A DNA stretch of 64,000 bases, taken from the NCBI GenBank assembly GCA_016722945.1, contig JAEQMT010000023.1, forward strand, positions 248,001 to 312,000, read 5' to 3'. A program made the position numbers and the translations under genes. Positions 17,037-56,028 of this stretch are shown here, piece by piece. The stretch comes from Desulfofustis sp. PB-SRB1. GTDB taxonomy: Bacteria > Desulfobacterota > Desulfobulbia > Desulfobulbales > Desulfocapsaceae. The notes below the pieces were generated by a model. The model was not told the origin of the DNA and did no database searches. It was given only the letters and a program-made list of their open reading frames with translations. How positions within the stretch are numbered: the stretch's first letter is position 1; each line of letters starts with the position of its first letter.

Positions 17037-17570
17037 ATGGAATTGAAAATCGAGGCCCGAAATGTTGAGTTGAAAAAAGGCTGGCAGATGAAAATTGAGG
17101 AAGAGAAGGAGAAACTACTGCGCCATCATGCCGGTTTTGTGTTGCACCTCCGGGTTGCCATTGAAGCCACGACTCACCATAAACAGGATAATTATGAGGT
17201 CAAAATCGTTGCCTCGGTTCCCAACGATACGGTGGTTGTCTCCAAAAAAGGTGATGTGGTTCGTGCCCTGCTCGTTGAGGCCTTTGATGTTCTTGCCTTG
17301 AAGCTGAAAGAAATTACGCGTAAGAAGCGAAAACTCAAGAAAAACCTCGAACAGGGGGGTGACGGCGATGGCAAGGGCGTTGTTCATCTGGTGGTTCCCA
17401 GCGAGTCTTACGGTTTTATTACCTCAGTTGATCAGCGTGAGATCTACTTTCACGAAAATGCCCTGAAAAATGTCGCCATATCCAGCCTGACGGAAGGAGA
17501 CTTGGTGATCTTTGGTGAATCGCGTGGCGACAAAGGCCCTCAGGCGGCGTGGGTGCGGGTGGCTAAATAA
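17037..17570 (+). CDS. HPF/RaiA-like ribosome-associated protein fused to a cold-shock domain
   Basis: A 177-residue protein with two parts. Residues 1-105 fit the S30AE/HPF fold: VELKKGWQMKIEEEKEKLLRH, HLRVAIEATTHH and YEVKIVASVPNDTVVV, with a later amphipathic helix rich in lysine (ITRKKRKLKKNL). After a Gly/Asp linker (EQGGDGDGKG), residues about 112-177 form a cold-shock-like domain, with SYGFITSVDQREIYFHENAL taking the place of the RNP1/RNP2 strands and a C-terminal QAAWVRV strand. GGAGG lies 6 bases before the ATG. It probably binds ribosomes or RNA under stress. It appears monocistronic. Confidence 0.85.
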   Translation: MELKIEARNVELKKGWQMKIEEEKEKLLRHHAGFVLHLRVAIEATTHHKQDNYEVKIVASVPNDTVVVSKKGDVVRALLVEAFDVLALKLKEITRKKRKLKKNLEQGGDGDGKGVVHLVVPSESYGFITSVDQREIYFHENALKNVAISSLTEGDLVIFGESRGDKGPQAAWVRVAK

Positions 17571-17598
17571 GTAGAGTCCCCGTCAGCCCCCTTAGACC

Positions 17599-19197
17599 TT
17601 ACCCTTTTCCAGAATTATTCCGCGCAAAAGCGAAATCTTTTTTCTGATAGAGATCAGGATCTGCATCGGGGTAGCCCGCCGCTGCCCCGTTCCACGGTTT
17701 GATAAGGGTGTAGCGATTGTCCGCAAAGCCGTCGACGTTGTCGCGGTGCAGGGGAATCTTGCCGCCGGCGGTGGCGATGTAGCGGGGGATGGCATCGCCT
17801 GAGATGTTGCCGTACATGGACTCGACGATGTCCCGGCCCACCGCCAAGGGGACACGGAAGTGGGCGAATTGCGGGTTGCGGTAGCTGCAGTTGAAAATGT
17901 AGTACGGCCTGACATAGGCCTCCTGAATAGTCTCACACAATTTCCACATCTTCACCCTGGTATCGTTGATGCCTTTGAGCAGAACCGCCTGATTGAGTAC
18001 GGTAAAGCTGGCTTTGGAAAGACGGCGGAAGGCATCCTTTGAAACCGGAGTGATTTCGCGTGCCGTGTTTATCTGGGTTACCATCCGGATCGCCTTTTTG
18101 TCGTTGCTGGCGCTGATGATGTCAAGCAGTTCGTTGTCTATGCGCATGGGCGCCGTAACCGGGATGCGGGTGCCGAGTCGTTTGACCTTCACTTGATCGA
18201 TGGCGTCCAGTTCGGCGAGCAGCCATCTAAGCATGCTGTTGGGCAGTACCAGGGCATCGCCGCCGGTTACCAGGACGTCGCGGATGCGATGGTTGGCGCG
18301 GATGTAGGCGAGCGCTTCGCCATAGGCATCCTTGGCATACACCTGATCCTTGCGGCCGATATGGGCAATGCGCAGACAGTGGGTGCAGTACATGGCGCAC
18401 ATATTGGTGGCCTTGATGGTAACCACCCGCGGGTAGAATTGATCGATCAGCCGGGCCGGGGAGTGATCCGCCGCCACCGGCGGTATTTCAACGCCAGCGT
18501 TATCGATCATCTCACCGGTTGGGATGGACTGCAGCATGATTGGATCATTCACCTCGCCGGGCATGATGAGACTGGTGTAGTAAGGGGTGAGGCGCATACG
18601 ATAGGTCTTGGTGACGCGCCGCATGGTGGCCAGGGTGTCGGCCGGCAGGTCGATCAGGGCGGCCAGCTCATCGACGCTGTCAATGGCGTGCCGGATCTGG
18701 CCGCTGAACGAGTTCCATGACTTATCAGACATTGACAGTGCCCGTTTGATCCGTTCCTGGTGATCGAGGATCTGATCCCATAACTCAATTCCACTGGGCG
18801 CCTCGGTATCCTTGCGGGCCAGATACTCATCGACCCGCTCGTTGGCCTGGGCGGCGATGGGCAGGGCCTGGGTGAGACGACCGCCGGCACTGACCAGATG
18901 CTCATCGATTCTCTGATGTTTGATCGCCAGCTCGGCCAGTGTTTGCCGGGAAATGCCAAAATCGTCGGGGTTGCGCCGGTGGTCTCGTTTTTGGAAAACT
19001 AAAAACTGGAGCAATCTCAGGATCGGGCCGGTCAAATCGGTTCTGCCCGCCTCTTCCAACAGGGTTTTTGCGGTGGTTGCATCGTCCGTGGAAATAGGGG
19101 ACGAGTCAGGTGTGGCGGTATATAAGTCGTCCAGCAATGTGGTGGTGAAATCATCGAGGGTGGTGGGCTCGCCCGAACCGGAAAAGATGGTGGTCAT
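17599..19197 (-). CDS. KamA-family radical SAM aminomutase (lysine 2,3-aminomutase-like)
   Basis: A 532-residue PLP- and SAM-dependent aminomutase-like enzyme expected to move an alpha-amino group to the beta carbon. The radical SAM motif is CAMYCTHCLR (C-x3-C-x2-C, near residue 270). The LAM-like landmarks GGDALVLP, RLGTRIPVTAPMRI, QINTAREITP and the likely PLP lysine in ATAGGKIPL are present. It has an extra N-terminal region of about 130 residues compared with clostridial lysine aminomutase. Of the two aspartates that bind the lysine side-chain amine, one is kept (LLKGIND) but the second is Ser (YYIFNCS instead of YYIYQCD), so lysine may not be the substrate. It starts 4 bases behind the ATP-grasp gene; no AblB-type acetyltransferase is adjacent. 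Confidence 0.85.
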   Translation of the reverse strand: MTTIFSGSGEPTTLDDFTTTLLDDLYTATPDSSPISTDDATTAKTLLEEAGRTDLTGPILRLLQFLVFQKRDHRRNPDDFGISRQTLAELAIKHQRIDEHLVSAGGRLTQALPIAAQANERVDEYLARKDTEAPSGIELWDQILDHQERIKRALSMSDKSWNSFSGQIRHAIDSVDELAALIDLPADTLATMRRVTKTYRMRLTPYYTSLIMPGEVNDPIMLQSIPTGEMIDNAGVEIPPVAADHSPARLIDQFYPRVVTIKATNMCAMYCTHCLRIAHIGRKDQVYAKDAYGEALAYIRANHRIRDVLVTGGDALVLPNSMLRWLLAELDAIDQVKVKRLGTRIPVTAPMRIDNELLDIISASNDKKAIRMVTQINTAREITPVSKDAFRRLSKASFTVLNQAVLLKGINDTRVKMWKLCETIQEAYVRPYYIFNCSYRNPQFAHFRVPLAVGRDIVESMYGNISGDAIPRYIATAGGKIPLHRDNVDGFADNRYTLIKPWNGAAAGYPDADPDLYQKKDFAFARNNSGKG

Positions 19198-19201
19198 TGG
19201 C

Positions 19202-20620
19202 TTATGCCTCGGTTATGGTTTGTCTGATAAAGCCGACTCCCTGACAGATTCCCTCATCCACATCCTCGCGGTTTTTGGCAACTGATACAACGCGAGCGAG
19301 AAAGCTGCCCGGCATTACCAGGAAGTTGGTGCCGGGATGTTCGAGGATCACGAAATCTTTAATCAATTCGTCGTTTGCCACCTTCTGAAAGGTTTCGCGT
19401 TCGTATGGATTCTGTGGGATGTAGCCGGTGGTCAGTTTTCGCGTCTCAATCTTGTAATTATAGGTGCCCCAGTGGATGTTGCGGATATTGCCGTTCATTT
19501 CCACGGTGTGCGGAGGGAATCTGCTTTCAGTTACCGCGTAATATTCGAGTTCCGGCAGCATGGGGGAGCCCTCCGGCAGATTCTGCTCGAGGGTGAAACA
19601 GAATTCCAGGGTGGTGCCCTGCTTGCGGGCATTTATCTCCAGAAAATAGACGGATCCATCATGGGCGATGAGATAATCACAGCCGAAAATTCCCCGGTAT
19701 CCTTTGCCCCCCAGCATCCTCCCCACTCTGATGGTGTAATCGATGAGCTCAGCCCGCTGAGCTTCGCTGACGATTGAGGGGAATTTCGAGCCGATAAAGC
19801 GATTGCCGCCGACGATTATCTGATCGGCGATGCCCGCGATATACACATCGTTTTCATTTGCCACCACCGCCAGCACGGTGGGATCGATTTCGTGGGGGAT
19901 GAAGCGGGAGATCAGGTAGACGTCATTGGTTGCGCCGAATCGCTTGTGCACCTGCTCCTGGTCATGGGTTACCGCCGAATTGATTCCCGCCGCTGAATAG
20001 GCGCCGCTGATAAAAATGCCGTCCGTCCAGGTTTCGCGAAGTTTCCGCGTGGTCTCTGAGAGGCAGCTGAAATCCTCACACACCTTATGCTCGGCCAGCG
20101 GGACGATGGTCTCCAGAGACTTGTATTGGGTGATCTTATTGTTGAACTGTTTGGCGATATATTTATCCGGGCCAAGAATTGATACCCGGTCGATCTGATC
20201 CAGGGTCATTTCCAGAACACTCTCATACAGGTTGATATAGAGCTGATTCTGGCGTTTTAGGATAGTGTCGATAAGCAGACGCACGGCGGGGTTGTTGGAT
20301 ACCGCGGTCATAAACCTCGCCGTGTCGATGCGCCAGCTGCGCCGGGGATTTTTACCCGGTTGGGTAAAGGCGTGATCGGAAATAAATTCCTCTTCACCAC
20401 GCGGATTGATGACGATGATATTGGCGTAATTGTATTGAATGCAAATGTCAGGAATAATCGCGATGAAGCGCACCGGCTTGGTGGTAATGCGGTGGGACAA
20501 TGCTTCCTGGACGAAGTAGTTGAGACTGTATGTCTTTAGCTCGCCGATGTAGAGAAAATAGTAGAGATCGGGAGAGTAGGTGAAATTGGTGTAGAGTATC
20601 TCATCATCTTCGAGGATCAT
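19202..20620 (-). CDS. ATP-grasp ligase-like protein
   Basis: A 472-residue protein whose second half carries the ATP-grasp signature: GYRGIFGCDYLIAHDGSVYFLEINARKQ (about 315-342) contains the metal-binding D/E-x-N residues in FLEINAR. The central part (GPDKYIAKQFNNKITQY, then GIFISGAYSAAGINS) fits the ATP-binding lobe. ATP-grasp enzymes usually join a carboxylate to an amine through an acyl phosphate. The pair with a KamA-like aminomutase 4 bases downstream suggests that it uses a beta-amino acid, or makes a substrate for it. The exact reaction cannot be read from the sequence. No signal peptide or membrane segments are seen. Confidence 0.78.
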   Translation of the reverse strand: MILEDDEILYTNFTYSPDLYYFLYIGELKTYSLNYFVQEALSHRITTKPVRFIAIIPDICIQYNYANIIVINPRGEEEFISDHAFTQPGKNPRRSWRIDTARFMTAVSNNPAVRLLIDTILKRQNQLYINLYESVLEMTLDQIDRVSILGPDKYIAKQFNNKITQYKSLETIVPLAEHKVCEDFSCLSETTRKLRETWTDGIFISGAYSAAGINSAVTHDQEQVHKRFGATNDVYLISRFIPHEIDPTVLAVVANENDVYIAGIADQIIVGGNRFIGSKFPSIVSEAQRAELIDYTIRVGRMLGGKGYRGIFGCDYLIAHDGSVYFLEINARKQGTTLEFCFTLEQNLPEGSPMLPELEYYAVTESRFPPHTVEMNGNIRNIHWGTYNYKIETRKLTTGYIPQNPYERETFQKVANDELIKDFVILEHPGTNFLVMPGSFLARVVSVAKNREDVDEGICQGVGFIRQTITEA

Positions 20621-20881
20621 GGGTGAAACCCCAAGGTGTCATACTTTTATAGTTGATAGGATGACCTCACACAAGACCATGACCGTTACCTCTCGCCAAG
20701 AGCTTTGTCAAGAGCCGAAAAGTCGACTTTTTTCCTGCCGGGTAAATTAATCTTTGCAGCTAAGAATGAAGTGGTTATTAGTTATGGAGTTAATCGGTTG
20801 TGCATTCGGCATGACTGGCTTTCCTTACACTATGTGTGAGGGATACGAATTCCACATTTAAATACAGATGGAGGGAGAAAC
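20621..20881. promoter_or_regulatory. Divergent control region between the ATP-grasp and TAXI genes
   Basis: A 261-base region separating two divergent transcription units, AT-rich around 20735-20800. A strong ribosome site GGAGGGAGA (20869-20877) precedes the TAXI gene. Promoters for both sides must be here; no hexamer pair or operator repeat is convincing by eye. Confidence 0.45.
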
Positions 20882-21856
20882 ATGAAAAAGTTTACGGCAG
20901 TTGTAGCCGCCATGAGCATGGGTTTGGTGATGGCGGCATCCAGCGCGGTATACGCGGCGGATACCACCTTCGTGACCATCGGTACCGGCGGAGTTACCGG
21001 CGTCTACTATCCCACCGGCGGCGCCATTGCCCGACTGGTCAACAAGAATAAGGCTGAACATGGAATCCGCGCCACAGTTGAAAGTACCGGCGGATCAACA
21101 TATAACCTTGCCGCTATTGCTACCGGTGAGCTTGATATGGGGGTTGTTCAGTCCGACTGGCAGTACCATGCTTATAACGGCACTTCCATATTCGAAGAGA
21201 AAGGGCCGAACAAGGATTTGCGCGCGGTTTTTTCATTACATCCAGAACCATTCCATGTTGTTGCCAGAGCCGATTCCGGGATCAAGAATTTTCAGGACCT
21301 CAAGGGTAAGCGGGTCAATATCGGTAACCCCGGTTCAGGTCAGCGCGGCACCATGGAAGTGGTAATGGAAAAAATGGGCTGGACCAAGGACGACTTTCAA
21401 CTGGCCTCAGAATTGAAATCCGCTGAACAGTCGCAGGCACTTTGTGACAACAAGGTAGACGCGATTGTATTTACCGTAGGGATTCCCTCTGGATCAATAG
21501 AAGAGGCTACTACATCATGCGACTCAGTACTGGTGAACGTGCAGGGCCCTGAAATCGATGCCCTCGTGGAAGAGAACGACTATTACCGAGTCGCCACCAT
21601 CCCCGGCGGCATGTATCGTGGTAACGAAGAAGATGTGGTGACCTTTGGTGTCGGCGCCACCTTTGTATCGTCCAGCCAGGTTCCCGAAGAGGTCATCTAC
21701 GTGGTAACGAAGTCGGTATTTGAGAATTTTGACGACTTCAAAAGGCTTCACCCGGCCTTTGCCAACCTGAAGAAAGAGGAAATGGTAAAAGACGGCCTCT
21801 CCGCGCCGCTGCATGACGGTGCCGCTAAGTACTATAAAGAAGCCGGCCTGATGTAG
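20882..21856 (+). CDS. TAXI-family TRAP transporter solute-binding protein
   Basis: A 324-residue periplasmic binding protein with a clear Sec signal peptide (MKKFTAVVAAMSMGLVMAAS, cleavage likely after VYA-AD near residue 26). The mature part opens with the TAXI family pattern VTIGTGGVTGVYYPTGGAIARLVN. Other conserved blocks are AIATGELDMGVVQSDW, LKGKRVNIGNPGSGQRGTMEV and VDAIVFTVGIPSGSIEEAT. TAXI proteins deliver small organic anions or amino acids to a fused TRAP permease, which is encoded next. A strong terminator lies directly after the gene, so its product may be made in excess over the permease. The ligand is unknown. Confidence 0.93.
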   Translation: MKKFTAVVAAMSMGLVMAASSAVYAADTTFVTIGTGGVTGVYYPTGGAIARLVNKNKAEHGIRATVESTGGSTYNLAAIATGELDMGVVQSDWQYHAYNGTSIFEEKGPNKDLRAVFSLHPEPFHVVARADSGIKNFQDLKGKRVNIGNPGSGQRGTMEVVMEKMGWTKDDFQLASELKSAEQSQALCDNKVDAIVFTVGIPSGSIEEATTSCDSVLVNVQGPEIDALVEENDYYRVATIPGGMYRGNEEDVVTFGVGATFVSSSQVPEEVIYVVTKSVFENFDDFKRLHPAFANLKKEEMVKDGLSAPLHDGAAKYYKEAGLM

Positions 21857-21878
21857 TTGATCACTTTAACTGCAAGTT

Positions 21879-21913
21879 AAAAAACGCGGCCCCCCTGGGG
21901 GTCGCGTTTTTTA
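21879..21913 (+). terminator. Intrinsic terminator between the TAXI gene and its permease
   Basis: AAAAAACGCG pairs with CGCGTTTTTT around a GC-rich loop (GCCCCCCTGGGGGT forms further pairs), followed by T-rich sequence. Partial read-through would give the usual excess of binding protein over permease. Confidence 0.88.
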
Positions 21914-22021
21914 TTGGGTGCGGCCGCCTGAGGGTGTTGCACAAAAGGGTGGTGACAAACGCGGCGGCGGTTTGGTACACTATTTTTTTACCACAATATC
22001 ATCCCAATCAGGAGTGTGCCG

Positions 22022-24616
22022 ATGACCACGCCAACCGAGAAGCCCGCCGTCCAGACCGACGTCAATCAGTTTGTCGCCGAAGCCGATACCGGCGGACGCC
22101 GACCTGTGGGGGCGGTTTCCAAAAACATTTTGTTTTACGTGCCCTTGGCGTGGACCCTGTTTCAACTCTGGTATGCCTCACCGCTGCCATACCTGTTTAA
22201 CCTATTCGTTCTCAACTCCACCGAGGCACGGGCCATTCACCTTGCCTTTGCCATGTTTCTCGCCTATACCGCCTTTCCCACCTTCAAATCATCGCCCCGC
22301 AGCTATATCCCTATTCAGGACTGGCTGCTGGCACTGGTCGCGGCATTTTCCTCGGCCTATATTTTCTTTTTTTACGAGGCTCTTTCGGAGCGGCCGGGCG
22401 ACCCGATCGTGCTTGATCTGGTGGTTGCCGTCATCGGCCTGACCCTGCTGCTCGAGGCAACCCGGCGGGCGCTGGGACCGCCGCTCATGGTAGTGGCGCT
22501 GGTCTTTATCATGTACACCTTTGCCGGTCCTTACATGCCTGATGTTATCGCCCACAAGGGGGCAAGCCTGGTCAAGGGTATGACCCACTATTGGCTCACC
22601 ACCGAAGGGGTGTTCGGAGTGGCGCTGGGGGTGTCCACCAGCATGGTCTTCATGTTCGTGCTGTTTGGCTCGCTATTGGAGACGGCCGGGGCGGGAAACT
22701 ATTTTATCCGTACCGCTTTTGCCGGTCTGGGTCATATGCGGGGCGGGCCGGCCAAGGCGGCGGTGGTTTCCTCGGCCATGACCGGCCTGGTATCGGGTTC
22801 ATCCATTGCCAACGTGGTCACCACCGGGACCTTTACCATTCCGCTCATGAAAAAGGTCGGCTTTACCCCGGAAAAAGCGGGCGCCATCGAGGTCGCTTCA
22901 TCCACCAACGGCCAGTTGACCCCGCCGGTTATGGGGGCGGCGGCGTTTTTGATGGTGGAGTACGTGGGTATTTCCTACATCGAGGTTATCAAACACGCCT
23001 TTCTGCCAGCCGTGATTTCCTATATCGCCCTGGTCTATATCGTTCACCTGGAGGCCTGTAAGATGGGGCTGCAGGGGCTTGCAAAACGGCCGGGAAGCAC
23101 CACCATCGCCCAGCGGCTGCTGGGTATGGCAACCGGCTTTCTGGTTTTTATTGTGATCGGGGCGGCAACCTATTTCGGGTTGGGCTGGATCAAGACGGTG
23201 GCCGGCAGCGCCACCCTCTATATTGTGACGGTTCTGCTTTTTACCGCCTACGTGCTGCTGCTCTGGTATGCCTGCCGGGTGCCGGAACTGGAAATCACCA
23301 CCGAGATTACCGAACTGCCGCCGCTCAAGGAGACCGCCCAGGCCGGTTACTACTTTCTGCTGCCCATCGTGGTGCTCATGTGGTGTCTGACGGTGGAGCG
23401 GCTGTCACCCTCGCTTTCGGCCTTCTGGGCCACCGTGTTGATGATTGGTATCGTGGTAACCCAGCGCCCCCTCAAGGGATGGCTGCGCAAAGGAGTCGGT
23501 GAGCAATTCTCGGTTCGATTGGGCTTTGCCGATCTGATTAACGGGATGGTTTCCGGCGCCCGCAACATGATCGGCATCGGCGTTGCCACCGCCGCCGCCG
23601 GCATCGTGGTGGGAACGGTGACGCTCACCGGGATTGGCCTGGTGATGACCGAATTCGTGGAGTTTATCTCAGGCGGCAACCTGCCGCTGATTCTGCTGTT
23701 TACCGCGGTGATCAGTCTATTGCTGGGCATGGGGCTGCCCACCACCGCCAACTACATCGTGGTATCGACCCTGATGGCTCCGGTCATCGTCAACCTGGGC
23801 GCCCAGAACGGTCTTATCGTACCGCTTATCGCCGTACATCTCTTCGTCTTTTATTTCGGCATCCTCGCCGATGATACCCCGCCGGTGGGGCTCGCCGCCT
23901 TTGCGGCGGCGGGAATATCCGGGGGGGATCCCATTCGTACCGGTATTCAGGGGTTCACCTACGATATCAGAACGGCGATCTTGCCCTTTATTTTTATCTT
24001 CAACACCGAACTGCTGATGATCGGGATCGGCTCTCCGCTGCATTTTATCGTTGTGGTTTCCGCTTCCGTGGTGGCGATGCTGGCCTTTGCCGCTGCCACC
24101 CAGGGCTATTTCATCACCCGCAATAAAATATGGGAGACTGCCGCTCTTTTGATCGCCGCCTTTATCCTGTTCCGGCCGGGGGTGGTGTGGGATAACTTTT
24201 TTCCCGAGCTTCTGGTCAAAGAGCCTTCCCAACTGGAAGAAGTTGCCGGCACCATCGATCCCGGCGGCCAGCTCAGGCTCACCGTCTCGGGAGAAAAAAT
24301 GAGTGGTGAGCAATACACCAAAACGGTCATGATTCCAGTGGGTGAAGGGGGAGCCGGTGACGAGCGTGTCCGGGAAATGGGGATAGAGACGCTGGAGGAA
24401 GACGGCAGGATACTCGTTGATATGGTCACCTTTGCCAGTCCCGCTGAGAAGGCCGGCATTGTTTTTGATCAGGAAATTGTCAATATCCTCATTCCCAACG
24501 ATCGACCCCCGAAACAGCTTATGTTCATCCCCGCCCTGGCGCTATTGGCCCTCATCTGGTTCCTGCAGAAAGCGCGGGTGGCGCGGGCTTTGGCGGCAAG
24601 TGGCTCAGAGATTTGA
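22022..24616 (+). CDS. TRAP transporter fused permease (DctQM-type, TAXI-associated)
   Basis: An 864-residue inner-membrane protein with about 16-20 hydrophobic segments, in which the small (Q) and large (M) TRAP subunits are one chain. Family hallmarks include SSTNGQLTPPVMGAAAFLMVEYVG, GMGLPTTANYIVVSTLMAPVI and FGILADDTPPVGLAAFAAAGI. The C-terminal non-membrane stretch (about 740-835) followed by a last helix and basic tail matches the DUF3394 extension of these permeases. AGGAG lies 7 bases before the ATG at 22022; a GTG at 22016 is less likely. It would import the ligand of the TAXI protein using an ion gradient, usually Na+. Confidence 0.92.
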   Translation: MTTPTEKPAVQTDVNQFVAEADTGGRRPVGAVSKNILFYVPLAWTLFQLWYASPLPYLFNLFVLNSTEARAIHLAFAMFLAYTAFPTFKSSPRSYIPIQDWLLALVAAFSSAYIFFFYEALSERPGDPIVLDLVVAVIGLTLLLEATRRALGPPLMVVALVFIMYTFAGPYMPDVIAHKGASLVKGMTHYWLTTEGVFGVALGVSTSMVFMFVLFGSLLETAGAGNYFIRTAFAGLGHMRGGPAKAAVVSSAMTGLVSGSSIANVVTTGTFTIPLMKKVGFTPEKAGAIEVASSTNGQLTPPVMGAAAFLMVEYVGISYIEVIKHAFLPAVISYIALVYIVHLEACKMGLQGLAKRPGSTTIAQRLLGMATGFLVFIVIGAATYFGLGWIKTVAGSATLYIVTVLLFTAYVLLLWYACRVPELEITTEITELPPLKETAQAGYYFLLPIVVLMWCLTVERLSPSLSAFWATVLMIGIVVTQRPLKGWLRKGVGEQFSVRLGFADLINGMVSGARNMIGIGVATAAAGIVVGTVTLTGIGLVMTEFVEFISGGNLPLILLFTAVISLLLGMGLPTTANYIVVSTLMAPVIVNLGAQNGLIVPLIAVHLFVFYFGILADDTPPVGLAAFAAAGISGGDPIRTGIQGFTYDIRTAILPFIFIFNTELLMIGIGSPLHFIVVVSASVVAMLAFAAATQGYFITRNKIWETAALLIAAFILFRPGVVWDNFFPELLVKEPSQLEEVAGTIDPGGQLRLTVSGEKMSGEQYTKTVMIPVGEGGAGDERVREMGIETLEEDGRILVDMVTFASPAEKAGIVFDQEIVNILIPNDRPPKQLMFIPALALLALIWFLQKARVARALAASGSEI

Positions 24617-24658
24617 CAGGATTACCTTACAAAAATTTTATAAGGGCTGGCTAATACA

Positions 24659-25156
24659 ATGATCAAAAAAATTATGGTGCCCGTGGCATTTTCAAAATAT
24701 TCGCAGGGAATCTTGGAGTATGCTCAGGGTCTTGCAGCGCCGCTTGACGCCGAGTTGCTGATCGTCAATGTGATCAGTGAGCGGGATATGGAGGCGGTGA
24801 ATAAGATTTCGTCGTTTGGCTACAAGGTGGACAGCGAATCCTACGTCGCCACCATAAAAATGGAGCGGCGAAAACAGCTCGGCGAACTCACCGAAAAGCT
24901 CACTTTGCCCGATGACAAGGTGTCGTTTTCTTTTCTGATCGGTGATCCCACCGATGAGTTGCTCCGGTGTGTCATCGAGGAGCATGTCGATCTGGTGGTG
25001 ATGGGCATCAAGAACAAGGAAATAAAACATATTTTCGCCGGCTCGGTGGCCGAGCGCATGTTCCGGCGCTGTCCGGTGCCGGTATTGTCCTATCGTGGTG
25101 ACGATATTGCCCAACGGCTTCACAAACATATCGAAAAATATGTCATCGACCATTGA
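24659..25156 (+). CDS. Universal stress protein (UspA family)
   Basis: A 165-residue cytoplasmic protein. It starts MIKKIMVPVAFSKYSQGILEYA, the first USP strand and helix, and has the ATP-binding signature near its end: VVMGIKNKEIKHIFAGSVAERMFRRCPVPVLSY (G-x2-x9-G-S/T pattern). It lies 42 bases behind the TRAP permease and is probably in the same operon. A USP gene attached to a TRAP operon is known for the ectoine transporter TeaABC (TeaD), where it modulates uptake; a similar role here is inference. Confidence 0.92.
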   Translation: MIKKIMVPVAFSKYSQGILEYAQGLAAPLDAELLIVNVISERDMEAVNKISSFGYKVDSESYVATIKMERRKQLGELTEKLTLPDDKVSFSFLIGDPTDELLRCVIEEHVDLVVMGIKNKEIKHIFAGSVAERMFRRCPVPVLSYRGDDIAQRLHKHIEKYVIDH

Positions 25157-25350
25157 TATGGCTCCGTAATAATCCCTGTTTGCTGTATGCTGAAATTGAT
25201 CCGGAATCCACGTTTACCGGAAATCACTGAACTGCCGCCCAAGCCCGCCCTTAAGTGGTGTAATGCAGTTCGGAAATGAAGGGTTATGGCAATCGCAGGG
25301 TTTTATAAGTGCATCGTTGATGGCGGCAAATCATTGGGGGAGGAATAACT

Positions 25351-28017
25351 ATCAAGGAAGTATACCTTATTGACGGCTCCACCTTTATCTACCGCGCCTT
25401 TCATGCCATTGGTTCGCTGACCAACGCACAGGGCATGCAGACCAATGCGGTATTCGGCTTTGTCAGTATCGTCCGGCGGCTCTTCAATGAACGCAAGCCG
25501 GCATTCGTGGCGGTGGCCTTTGACAGTCGTGGGCCGGTGTTTCGCCATGAACTCTATGCCGACTACAAGGCCAATCGGCCGCCCATGCCGGATGAGCTTG
25601 CCGAACAGATCCCCTATATCAAGGAGGCGGTTACCGCGCTGGGCATCACCAGTTTCGAGCAGCCGGGCGTCGAGGCTGACGATCTCATCGCCTCGGCGGT
25701 GCGACGGCTCGATGCAGCTGGTCAAAAGGTTATCATTGTCTCAGGTGACAAGGACCTTCTGCAACTCGTCAATGACCGGGTCATTATGTGGGACCCCATG
25801 AACGACCGGCTCATGGATGCAGCCGCGGTTGCCGACAAATACCAGGTAGTACCGGCACGGCTGCTCGACTGTTTCGCCCTGATCGGTGACAGTTCCGATA
25901 ATGTTCCCGGTGTCCCCGGGGTGGGGGTGAAGACGGCTGCCGCCCTTATCGGCGAGTATGCCACGCTGGAAAATCTGTACGATAATCTCGATACTCTTTC
26001 CCAGAAGAAAACCCGTGAACGGTTGCGGGAATACCGGGAGCAGGCGTTTTTATCGAGAGACCTGATCAGGCTCAAAGATGATATCGAAGTTTCCAGCGAC
26101 GTAGCCGATTATGCACCAGCTTCGCCTGACCCGAAACGGTTGCGCGAGCTGTATGTGACCCTGGGGTTCAACTCGCTGCTCAAAGAGCTTGACAGTTCCC
26201 AGCCTATTCCCGATGACGGCTTTATCCTGGTTGCCGAACCCGCTGAACTGGGACGGCTCGGCGAGTTGTGGGGCAGCGCTGAGCAGCTTGCCATCGACAC
26301 GGAAACAACCTCGATTGACAGCAGAATTGCCGAGCTGGTGGGGGTGTCGGTGGCGACTTCAGCCGAGCAGTGCTGGTATCTGCCCATAGCTCACCGTGAT
26401 GCGACAGGTGCGCGGGTACCCGGCCAGCTCAGCCTGGAGCAGGTGCGCCATGCGCTAGCTCCACTTTTCAAGAATTCATCTCCGGCTCTGATCGGCCATA
26501 ATCTCAAATATGATCTGGCGGTGCTTAGAAACACCCTTAATCTTGTCCCCCACGCACCTCTGGTGGACACGATGATCGCCGCTCATCTCGCCGAACCCTC
26601 CCGGCGCTCTTTGAAGCTCGATGATATCTGTCGTGACAGGGGGTTTGAACTGACCCCCTACACTGCCGTCACCAGGGGCGATAAACGTGATGACGCCTTT
26701 GCCTATACCTCTATTGAAGAGGCCTGCGCCTATTCCTGCGAGGATGTGTACGGTGCGCTGATGCTGTGGCACCATTTTCAGCCGATACTCACCAGGCAGG
26801 GCCAGATGGAGCTTTTTGCCACGGTGGAAACCCCGCTTATCAAAGTTCTGGTGGCCATGGAGGAGGCCGGCATCGGTATCGATACCACCCGTCTGGCGGA
26901 ACTTGAGCGGGAGTTCAGCGATCAGCTTGCCATCCTTGAAAAAGAGATCTACAAGCTGGCCGGTCGCTCATTTAATATCAATTCCCCCTCCCAGCTTGCC
27001 GTGGTACTCTTTGACGAGCTGGGGCTACCGCGCGGCCGGAAGACCAAGACCGGCTACTCCACCGATGCAAGGGTTCTGGAAAAACTTGCCTTAGAGCATG
27101 AGTTGCCGGCCAGGATCATCAGATACCGGAATTTTGCCAAACTGCTCTCCACCTACGTGGAAAGCCTCGGCGCCCTCATCGACCCGCATACCGGCAGGGT
27201 GCATACCTCGTTCAACCAGACGGTGACCGCCACCGGGCGGTTATCGTCCACCAATCCAAACCTCCAGAATATTCCCATCCGTGGCGAGGACGGCCATAAA
27301 ATCCGCGAGGCCTTCGTTCCCGCACCAGGTGCACTGTTTCTTTTTGCTGACTATTCGCAGATCGATCTGCGGGTGTTGGCCCACTATTCAGGCGATGAGG
27401 CGTTGACCGACGCCTTTCGCCACGGCGAAGACATCCACACCCGCACCGCCGCACAGATTTTTGGAGTCAATCCCGCTATGGTTACCACGGATATGCGCCG
27501 GGCGGCGAAATCGATTAATTTCGGTATTGTCTACGGGATGAGCAGTTACGGGCTCTCGGTGCAACTGGGCATCAGCCGGAGTGAGGCGGCACGGTTCATT
27601 GATCGCTATTTTGAGGTGTATCGCGGGGTCCGGGAGTTTATGGAACATATCGTCCGCCAGGCCCGCGATGACGGCTATGTCTCCACCCTGCTGGGACGTA
27701 GGCGATATCTGCCCGAGATCGGCGCCAGCAATAAAACGCGACGGGAATTTGCCGAGCGGGCGGCAATCAATACCCCGATCCAGGGTACCGCCGCTGATAT
27801 TATGAAGGTGGCGATGCTTGCGGTATACGAACTGCTGGCCGATCATCCAGGTTGTAAGATGGTGCTCCAGATCCATGACGAGCTCGTTTTTGAACTGGAC
27901 GAGGCCACCCGCGCCCTTGTTCAGGAGCCGATCCAGCAGGCTATGGAGGGCGCCGTGTCGTTGACGGTGCCGCTGGTGGTGAACGTTTCCACCGGCCTAA
28001 GCCTCGCCAAAGAGTGA
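25351..28017 (+). CDS. polA: DNA polymerase I, apparently with an AUC start codon
   Basis: An 888-residue repair and Okazaki-fragment polymerase. Domains in order: 5'-nuclease (EVYLIDGSTFIYRAFHAI, GVEADDLIAS, GDSSDNVPGVPGVGVKTA), a 3'-5' exonuclease-like domain (LAIDTETTSIDSRIAELVG keeps the Asp/Glu pair, with YSCEDVYGAL later) and the polymerase domain (motif A FADYSQIDLRVLAHYS, motif B RRAAKSINFGIVYGMSSYG, motif C QIHDELVFEL). No ATG, GTG or TTG exists between the upstream stop (25318) and residue 29. A GGAGGA site 6 bases before ATC 25351 places the start on AUC, exactly where relatives have Met (M-KEVYLIDGS). The first in-frame ATG (25435) would delete the nuclease catalytic Asp. A sequencing error or mutation is the alternative. 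Confidence 0.92.
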   Translation: MKEVYLIDGSTFIYRAFHAIGSLTNAQGMQTNAVFGFVSIVRRLFNERKPAFVAVAFDSRGPVFRHELYADYKANRPPMPDELAEQIPYIKEAVTALGITSFEQPGVEADDLIASAVRRLDAAGQKVIIVSGDKDLLQLVNDRVIMWDPMNDRLMDAAAVADKYQVVPARLLDCFALIGDSSDNVPGVPGVGVKTAAALIGEYATLENLYDNLDTLSQKKTRERLREYREQAFLSRDLIRLKDDIEVSSDVADYAPASPDPKRLRELYVTLGFNSLLKELDSSQPIPDDGFILVAEPAELGRLGELWGSAEQLAIDTETTSIDSRIAELVGVSVATSAEQCWYLPIAHRDATGARVPGQLSLEQVRHALAPLFKNSSPALIGHNLKYDLAVLRNTLNLVPHAPLVDTMIAAHLAEPSRRSLKLDDICRDRGFELTPYTAVTRGDKRDDAFAYTSIEEACAYSCEDVYGALMLWHHFQPILTRQGQMELFATVETPLIKVLVAMEEAGIGIDTTRLAELEREFSDQLAILEKEIYKLAGRSFNINSPSQLAVVLFDELGLPRGRKTKTGYSTDARVLEKLALEHELPARIIRYRNFAKLLSTYVESLGALIDPHTGRVHTSFNQTVTATGRLSSTNPNLQNIPIRGEDGHKIREAFVPAPGALFLFADYSQIDLRVLAHYSGDEALTDAFRHGEDIHTRTAAQIFGVNPAMVTTDMRRAAKSINFGIVYGMSSYGLSVQLGISRSEAARFIDRYFEVYRGVREFMEHIVRQARDDGYVSTLLGRRRYLPEIGASNKTRREFAERAAINTPIQGTAADIMKVAMLAVYELLADHPGCKMVLQIHDELVFELDEATRALVQEPIQQAMEGAVSLTVPLVVNVSTGLSLAKE

Positions 28018-55298: not shown

Positions 55299-56028
55299 GT
55301 TTGCCCGTCATGGCGGGCAAACCCAGCCTGCGTTCTGCAGGCGTCACCCCGACCAGGGGGAAGACAATCTGAATCGCAAGGGCGTTGCTGGTAACGGCAG
55401 GGTCTGAAGGAAGCGATAAGAAGTGAGCGGTACATAGCGTAAGCGAACCTGATTCGGCGTTACGGAAGGGTAAGCGTGCGAAATAGCGCAAAGCCCGATA
55501 CCTGGTCAATTCCGTAACGTGATTGAGGATGCGATTGCTCACAGGGAGTTCGCCTTAACCGGGGAAGCCTTGCATCGTTCCCTGCTTGAATTACAGGAGG
55601 GTCAGGCGAGTACAAGAGGAGACTCAAGGCTTGTCGATGAGGTGTAAGGTGGCAGATGATCCCGCAGTAGTGTTGAAGTTCCGGCCTGTGAAAGCTGGTA
55701 ACAGTGTGGAGGGGAAAACCGGAACGATCTGGCGCGATGTTGTCAGAGACAGTCATGAGCCAAAAGCCATGTCTGTTGCGAAGGGGTGAAGTTTATTCAA
55801 AGAGTTTCAACCACCTGTGAAGGTTGAACGGTGGAGGACGAATCGCCCGACGTGGTGAGGCTCATTATCAGCGGTAGGCCATGACAGGCCGTCTGCCGAT
55901 GTTGGCTGCTCGCAGGAGTAGCGAGACAAACAGTCGTACATTGCCTGAGTGCTAGAAGGCGGCCGTCCCTCGTGAAGCATCCTGCATCGTTGAACTGAAA
56001 CAGGCCGTTGAGACCGCGGGACAGGGGA

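Follow-up and report, generated by a model that had tools for sequence, protein, structure and literature searches.

What does a bacterium make when it keeps a KamA-type aminomutase in one operon with an ATP-grasp enzyme, and which amino acid does the pair act on? The question is raised by a locus of Desulfofustis sp. PB-SRB1 (contig JAEQMT010000023.1, positions 248,001 to 312,000; this whole stretch of 64,000 nucleotides is the window), where the two genes are spaced by 4 nt (19198-19201), the ATP-grasp gene (product P0002) lying upstream, and are divergent from genes for a TAXI-type TRAP solute-binding protein (SBP; P0003), a fused permease and a universal stress protein (USP). A preliminary description of this DNA had set out the five genes, their strands, the 4-base gap and the divergent control region, all of which agree with our open reading frames (ORFs) and family matches, and had read them as synthesis and uptake of a solute derived from a beta-amino acid. 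Our results support the pairing and move the likely substrate to glutamate, and we give an even chance to the locus being a glutamate-based beta-amino-acid ligase module.

Conservation of the kamA and ATP-grasp pair

We compiled 90 kamA loci, 10 from kin genomes and 80 kept from a contig scan for relatives of the window KamA, and ran the window proteins by tblastn against the latter; some rows represent one species twice, as seen from identical pairs in the kamA tree. An ATP-grasp gene is present at 57 of the 67 loci having at least 1.6 kb upstream of kamA, and at 54 of those 57 it immediately precedes kamA on the same strand, no more than 700 nt away, with L031, L056 and L079 carrying it close to kamA in another spacing or orientation. 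In the kin set, which comprises the window genome and 37 relatives, strong matches to the KamA subfamily occur in 10 genomes and strong matches to the ATP-grasp enzyme in 10, such that 9 of the 38 have both genes, 27 have neither and 2 have a single one. Both single genes are at contig ends: kamA of G016 starts at contig base 15, and the ATP-grasp gene of G008 is cut short by the end of its contig, on which a divergent TAXI-TRAP-USP arrangement is present as well. In G009 and G022 the ATP-grasp matches were weak, at 25-29 bits, and were not counted as members of the family.

The pair is thus kept across many, mostly sulfate-reducing, bacteria; it occurs in Desulfobulbia, Desulfobacteria, Desulfovibrionia and a few records filed under other phyla. 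The preliminary description had named a neighbourhood survey as its check and a lack of conserved pairing as grounds for giving up the idea; no such lack appeared, with the two genes together at 57 of 67 loci and in 9 of the 11 kin genomes that have either. Names of records with a kamA locus include some that probably denote marine, soda-lake and saline-groundwater sources. Distances between KamA proteins correlate with those between ATP-grasp proteins (r 0.79, 59 loci) and between TAXI proteins (r 0.65, 20 loci), and 0 of 2,000 permutations were as high in either case; these correlations weigh little because common species descent explains them too. The ATP-grasp family was found in 0 of 296 genomes of the spirochaete phylum, in a search run without a positive control, and a plasmid search with P0002 returned only a BesA-like stretch of 91 residues in two records of one organism.

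The aminomutase and its likely substrate

The window KamA matches Radical_SAM and, with 232.1 bits (cut-off 199.2), TIGR00238, which places it in the KamA subfamily. Its AlphaFold model (pLDDT 85.1 overall, low around the cluster loop) superposes on lysine 2,3-aminomutase (LAM) 2a5h with a Z-score of 37.1 and 2.3 Å over 332 residues. Aligned to the same structure, its CxxxCxxC motif is C267/C271/C274, and R276 and K480 correspond to LAM Arg134 and to the PLP lysine, Lys337. The Fe-S cysteines and the equivalents of Arg134 and Lys337 are invariant in all 78 kamA loci with a full-length frame, the set used for every residue count. We take LAM Asp293 and Asp330 to be lysine-binding, Arg134 to bind the carboxylate and Lys337 to hold PLP. 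At the two aspartate positions the window protein has S438 and T476, and Ser and Thr, respectively, occupy them in 78/78 with no Asp at either. A one-residue insertion contributes Arg440, followed by Asn441 (each in 78/78), three residues are deleted ahead of the PLP lysine, and the N terminus carries an extra region of about 110 residues and has some 85-90 residues more than the glutamate 2,3-aminomutase (EAM) rows L141 and L142.

Among curated aminomutase models the best match was EAM with 330.1 bits, ahead of the lysine model AblA (TIGR03820; 281.6 bits, cut-off 525.4) and the arginine model (228 bits), all three falling under their cut-offs. In an unrooted tree, a 99/99 branch separates 12 rows of the subfamily together with 3 EAM rows from 17 lysine- or arginine-type rows, the exact place of the subfamily being unsure because its own branch is long. 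Because of this grouping, and because both lysine-binding aspartates are gone in 78/78, we infer that the mutase is of glutamate type and that its side-chain pocket is altered and may be roomier, the candidate substrates being free glutamate or a gamma-glutamyl amide. These changes would define a KamA subfamily with an altered substrate pocket. A divergent kamA relative in G309 (L160, 45% identity), excluded from the 78, shows a Ser..Arg pattern at the substrate site and lies on a 4.9-kb contig too short for partners.

The ATP-grasp enzyme, a putative ligase

P0002 scores 31.8 bits against ATP-grasp_3, above the Pfam gathering score (23.2), and its model (pLDDT 91.1) matches PurT 1kj8 with a Z-score of 25.5 and a root-mean-square deviation of 4.1 over 364 residues. 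Fold searches placed it in the general PurT/PurK/biotin-carboxylase group, BesA being absent among the 50 best rows listed. By sequence, BesA was both the best curated match (NF042917, 38.8 bits, under the equivalog cut-off of 750) and the best solved match (8yi6, E 8.6e-10; profile E 2.5e-8). Family membership makes a fair case for P0002 as a putative amide ligase, and there is a hint that it may be a glutamate ligase.

The partnership extends beyond the subfamily. In a phylum sample of 395 genomes, 8 have a homologue of the ATP-grasp enzyme, which lies beside a KamA of the subfamily in three of them (G000, the window genome; G049; G359) and beside, or fused to, an EAM-like KamA in two from distant lineages (G094 and G171). 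In G171 the ATP-grasp enzyme and the EAM-like KamA form one ORF of 922 aa, followed by an M20 homologue; of all the observations it argues most strongly for ligase and mutase acting in the same pathway. In G094 the ATP-grasp protein shares 42% identity with P0002, and with it occur an EAM-like KamA, an M20 peptidase sharing 35% identity with the one at the subfamily loci and, about 4-6 kb away, a TAXI SBP with 48% identity to P0003. Both EAM-like KamA proteins keep Lys at LAM position 293. With this pairing and the fusion, the earlier idea of a beta-amino acid modified by ligation gains support, its substrate family now sharpened to glutamate, not lysine.

The one over-cut-off EAM found in the phylum, in G261, has no ATP-grasp gene on its 11-kb contig; in the stretch L144 764-2561 the next ORF after the EAM gene resembles OsmC by eye. 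The window genome itself holds a second KamA (L101/L130, contig C45) of lysine type, with both Asp kept and 487 bits to AblA (cut-off 525), that overlaps or abuts a D-Ala-D-Ala-ligase-like ATP-grasp gene (135 bits, cut-off 243). KamA/ATP-grasp pairing therefore recurs there with another ATP-grasp family.

The linked TAXI-TRAP transporter

P0003 belongs to NMT1_3/TRAP_TAXI (378.8 bits, cut-off 84.35), the permease to DctM plus DUF3394/TRAP_fused (660.8, cut-off 320.65) and the last gene product to the Usp family (78.8, cut-off 24). P0003 aligns with VcGluP (VC0430, Vibrio cholerae; 8s4j) at 443.8 bits. VcGluP prefers L-glutamate as its ligand, the key residues being Tyr45 and Gln93 (PMC11574862); P0003 has Tyr42 and Gln90 at these positions. 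Equivalents of Tyr45, Tyr46, Ser75, Gln93, His123, Glu125, Gly156 and Gly203 are all kept, whereas P0003 carries Gln, Phe and Thr in place of Asp157, Tyr200 and Met201; the glutamate/glutamine TAXI protein TtGluBP also has Thr at the Met201 position (PMC11574862). P0003 further differs from VcGluP in adjoining an aminomutase operon.

We compared 26 rows, made up of P0003 and 25 linked TAXI proteins, some with just 43% identity to P0003. The full VcGluP site pattern is present in 24 of them, and Tyr45, Gln93 and Glu125 are kept in 25. Two rows lack the full pattern: for L040 the row represents an unrelated, second TAXI protein from the locus, and L075 retains Tyr45, Ser75, Gln93 and Glu125. The window genome has three further TAXI proteins above the cut-off; none shows the pattern, though one keeps Tyr, Ser and Gln. 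The linked transporter is accordingly predicted to carry L-glutamate, and as a predicted glutamate binder it would feed a precursor to the pathway rather than import a finished solute. The preliminary description had assigned it to solute uptake; import of a beta-amino-acid solute now appears less likely than glutamate import, given the VcGluP match and site.

Where both 10-kb flanks were available, 13 of 24 loci had a TAXI/TRAP gene in the fetched stretch, its side and orientation varying, while about 0.3 would be expected by chance (26 above-cut-off TAXI genes in 10 genomes, about 44.7 Mb); the loci are not phylogenetically independent. ATP-grasp, KamA and TAXI also occur together at L027, the locus of Desulfofustis glycolicus. 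The recurrence connects a TAXI transporter of predicted glutamate type with a pathway. Of 32 loci with 5 kb available to either side, 7 have a linked USP gene, and its role as a constant part of the module was not upheld. The parallel drawn earlier with the ectoine TRAP system TeaABCD holds as a general likeness, a USP gene after a TRAP transporter. It ends at the parts: we take TeaABCD to have a DctP-type TeaA, separate permease subunits and a USP gene after the transporter, whereas the window has a TAXI-type SBP and a fused permease.

M20 peptidase and gamma-glutamyltransferase variants

An M20 peptidase gene, with carboxypeptidase G2 as its best solved match, lies directly downstream of kamA at 51 of 68 loci with room for it. 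The pair at the core of the proposed two-gene synthesis operon is conserved, but most relatives have this third gene and other variants exist. In the window lineage (G000, G005, G011 and G021) only weak M20 matches were found, with strong matches in 5 of the 10 genomes searched. Since this lineage keeps ligase and mutase without M20, the ligated compound is a likelier end point there than a product freed from it.

Seven loci carry a gamma-glutamyltransferase (GGT)-family gene, and none of them has the ATP-grasp gene. Across the 67 loci, ATP-grasp, GGT, neither and both occur at 57, 7, 3 and 0, respectively (Fisher p 1.4e-7, uncorrected for kinship). Two of the GGT proteins were scored, and at 348 and 302 both come slightly below the curated cut-off of 357.85. 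On the kamA tree the ATP-grasp/GGT label changes at least three times, several forks being weak. The ten searched genomes without an ATP-grasp gene at the locus have no family member genome-wide except one partial match of 31.9 bits. A peptide-type SBP is present at 5 of the 7 GGT loci by ORF clusters and at 3 under a stricter tblastn threshold, GntR/FCD regulators occur at 7 loci, and G012 has both types, one locus reading GntR-ATP-grasp-KamA-M20 and the other GGT/SBP/KamA. This distribution suggests either that GGT stands in for the ligase and forms a gamma-glutamyl bond, or that the GGT loci degrade a product made by others.

The M20 and GGT variants leave room for a catabolic or salvage role, which we rank as a minority candidate, improbable on balance, though to be taken seriously. 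A gamma- or beta-glutamyl peptide would be imported, cleaved by GGT or M20 and turned by KamA from the beta to the alpha form, with the ATP-grasp enzyme as a side activity or a recycling step. The frequent M20 neighbour, the peptide-type SBPs at GGT loci without ATP-grasp, the GntR/FCD regulators and the near-complete genome-wide absence of the ATP-grasp family where the locus lacks it all fit such a role. It sits poorly with an ATP-consuming ligase as the most constant partner of the mutase, to which it is fused in G171, with a window lineage that keeps ATP-grasp, KamA and TAXI without a close M20, and with the two locus types of G012, which coexist as if their roles differed.

The exclusivity of ATP-grasp and GGT, both gamma-glutamyl-transfer enzymes, can also be read through a handle, by analogy with what we take BesA-type pathways to do. 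Here the ATP-grasp enzyme would load glutamate on an amine, the mutase would act on the adduct and a peptidase would free the product, leaving the dipeptide only as an intermediate. The weak but specific BesA match agrees with this route, and Ser at LAM 293 together with the 3-residue deletion could fit a longer side chain. We nevertheless find it distinctly unlikely: M20 is missing at 17 of 68 loci, including those of the window lineage, which has no evident means of releasing the product, and no other biosynthetic enzyme recurs by the pair among the top neighbour clusters.

A proposed glutamate-based ligase module

The importer, the mutase branch, the ligase hint, the peptidase and GGT all point to glutamate, and it is this convergence that leads us to the ligase module. 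From gene content, pairing, fusion, the loss of lysine-binding residues and the glutamate-type TAXI site, all read from the sequences, we infer its reactions, amide partner, step order and osmotic role as follows. L-Glutamate would be imported by TAXI-TRAP. KamA, as a sister group of EAM, would move the alpha-amino group to the beta carbon of a glutamate-type substrate, either glutamate itself or the glutamyl moiety of a gamma-glutamyl amide. The BesA-like ATP-grasp enzyme would join the glutamate unit to an amine, before or after the amino shift, giving a beta-glutamyl (3-aminoglutaryl) amide or dipeptide, and in most relatives the M20 peptidase of the carboxypeptidase G2 kind could re-cleave that amide. 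The likeliest purpose would be a metabolically inert compatible solute, comparable to EAM-made beta-glutamate in methanogens. Beta-glutamyl-glutamate may serve as an example product, a guess made because M20 resembles carboxypeptidase G2.

Several observations weigh against the module. The window KamA misses the EAM cut-off (TIGR04368, 650) at 330.1 bits and has Ser438 where EAM has Lys at LAM 293, and the likeness of P0002 to BesA is confined to about 90-100 residues within the catalytic part. Three kamA loci (L075, L081 and L093) have neither ATP-grasp nor GGT. In the remaining 3 of the 8 phylum-sample genomes (L156, L157 and L158; one genus), the ATP-grasp protein is about 33% identical to P0002 and 16-17 kb around it show no KamA, M20 or TAXI match. 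M20 and GGT would break a product of the kind proposed rather than make it, and where GGT occurs with a peptide importer the locus has a catabolic look. Early nuclear magnetic resonance work opposed a glutamate aminomutase in methanogens (PMC1224877).

The main beta-amino-acid osmolytes known so far are products of the lysine/acetyltransferase route and the beta-glutamate and beta-glutamine of methanogens, and an aminomutase operon with an amide ligase as its constant partner would add a different chemistry. A paper by Tunckanat (2022), listed among the references of PMC12429584, going by its title reportedly describes a methanogen EAM making beta-glutamate, with salt tolerance. We put forward only tentatively, and with more doubt than belief, the broader claim of a new class of compatible solute, in which sulfate reducers would build a beta-glutamyl dipeptide with an aminomutase and an ATP-grasp ligase, and M20, or GGT with peptide import, would degrade it elsewhere. 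Such a class would in addition give a bacterial origin for beta-aminoglutaric acid, which geochemists have reported in anoxic marine porewaters. A literature search of partial coverage found no paper joining aminomutase, ATP-grasp and KamA.

Comparison with characterized systems

EAM, known from C. difficile and methanogens, is the nearest characterized relative. It shares with the window KamA the fold and cofactors, the best curated match, the side of the 99/99 branch and, by eye, an N-terminal stretch of the YLxxKDxxPSGxE type. The EAM rule is Lys and Asn at LAM 293 and 330, and the over-cut-off EAM L141 has this combination; the subfamily differs in its Ser/Thr, although an EAM-like pair also has Thr at LAM 330, and in the invariant-Arg insertion, the 3-residue deletion, the longer N terminus and the ATP-grasp partner. 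A simpler scheme would make the window KamA a variant EAM acting on free glutamate, with beta-glutamate itself as the solute and the ATP-grasp enzyme yielding a minor derivative or a beta-glutamine-like amide. The EAM kinship and the linked glutamate importer speak for it, as does the standing of beta-glutamate and beta-glutamine as known osmolytes (PMC1224877). The score below the EAM cut-off and the missing Lys293 tell against this scheme, and a near-obligate ATP-grasp partner with a fusion suggests that ligation is central, so that we regard it as highly improbable.

The AblA/AblB operon for N-epsilon-acetyl-beta-lysine resembles the ligase module in having two genes, a KamA and a second enzyme that modifies the beta-amino acid; the window differs in its glutamate-branch mutase and in an ATP-grasp enzyme in place of the acetyltransferase. 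The replacement of AblB by ATP-grasp noted in the preliminary description agrees with our search, in which AblB (TIGR03827) gave 0 matches in the window genome while controls were found in 5 of 14 genomes, over the cut-off in 3. A lysine route, to an N-epsilon-acetyl-beta-lysine-type osmolyte or to lysine fermentation, has KamA family membership and fold in its favour and is rejected as having almost no chance, as the empty AblB search joins the loss, in 78/78, of lysine-binding aspartates that the other KamA of the same genome keeps.

BesA, an L-propargylglycine--L-glutamate ligase, is the best match of P0002, including an EINxRKxG stretch, but the score of 38.8 bits against a cut-off of 750 and the confinement of the match to the catalytic part set the two apart. 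The module is best described as a variant of known aminomutase-plus-modifier solute operons; it is not a member of EAM, AblA, BesA or TeaABCD, because it lacks some of the tested defining features of each.

Locus layout and other window features

Table 1. Features of the locus in window coordinates
Feature	Position	Strand	Length
KamA-type radical-SAM/PLP aminomutase, distinct subfamily	17599..19197	-	532 aa
ATP-grasp enzyme P0002, first gene of the operon	19202..20620	-	472 aa
Divergent intergenic region, putative synthesis operon versus transporter operon	20621..20881		261 nt
TAXI-type TRAP solute-binding protein P0003, VcGluP (L-glutamate) kind by prediction	20882..21856	+	324 aa
Terminator-like hairpin in the gap between SBP and permease genes	21879..21913	+	
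Fused TRAP permease (DctM) with C-terminal DUF3394	22016..24616	+	866 aa
Universal stress protein (USP), last gene of the TRAP operon	24659..25156	+	165 aa

The hairpin between the SBP and permease genes (Table 1) has a predicted energy of -27.4 kcal/mol (z -4.96) and is absent from the list of the consensus scan; it could possibly lead to more binding protein than permease. An Rfam scan of the window gave no match in the 261-nt intergenic region, and a regulatory RNA there was dropped as a candidate. No promoter-like consensus site was listed in that region, and 17400-25400 as a whole contains three promoter-like matches, below the shuffle mean of 6.5.

On the downstream side of the kamA operon and on the opposite strand, an ORF at 17037-17570 encodes a ribosomal S30AE (hibernation-factor-like) domain and a cold-shock domain; by ORF clusters, such an ORF is near kamA at 8 of 80 loci. 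Further along the window, a group II intron domain (RF02001) lies at 55385-55553 with 77.7 bits (gathering score 32).

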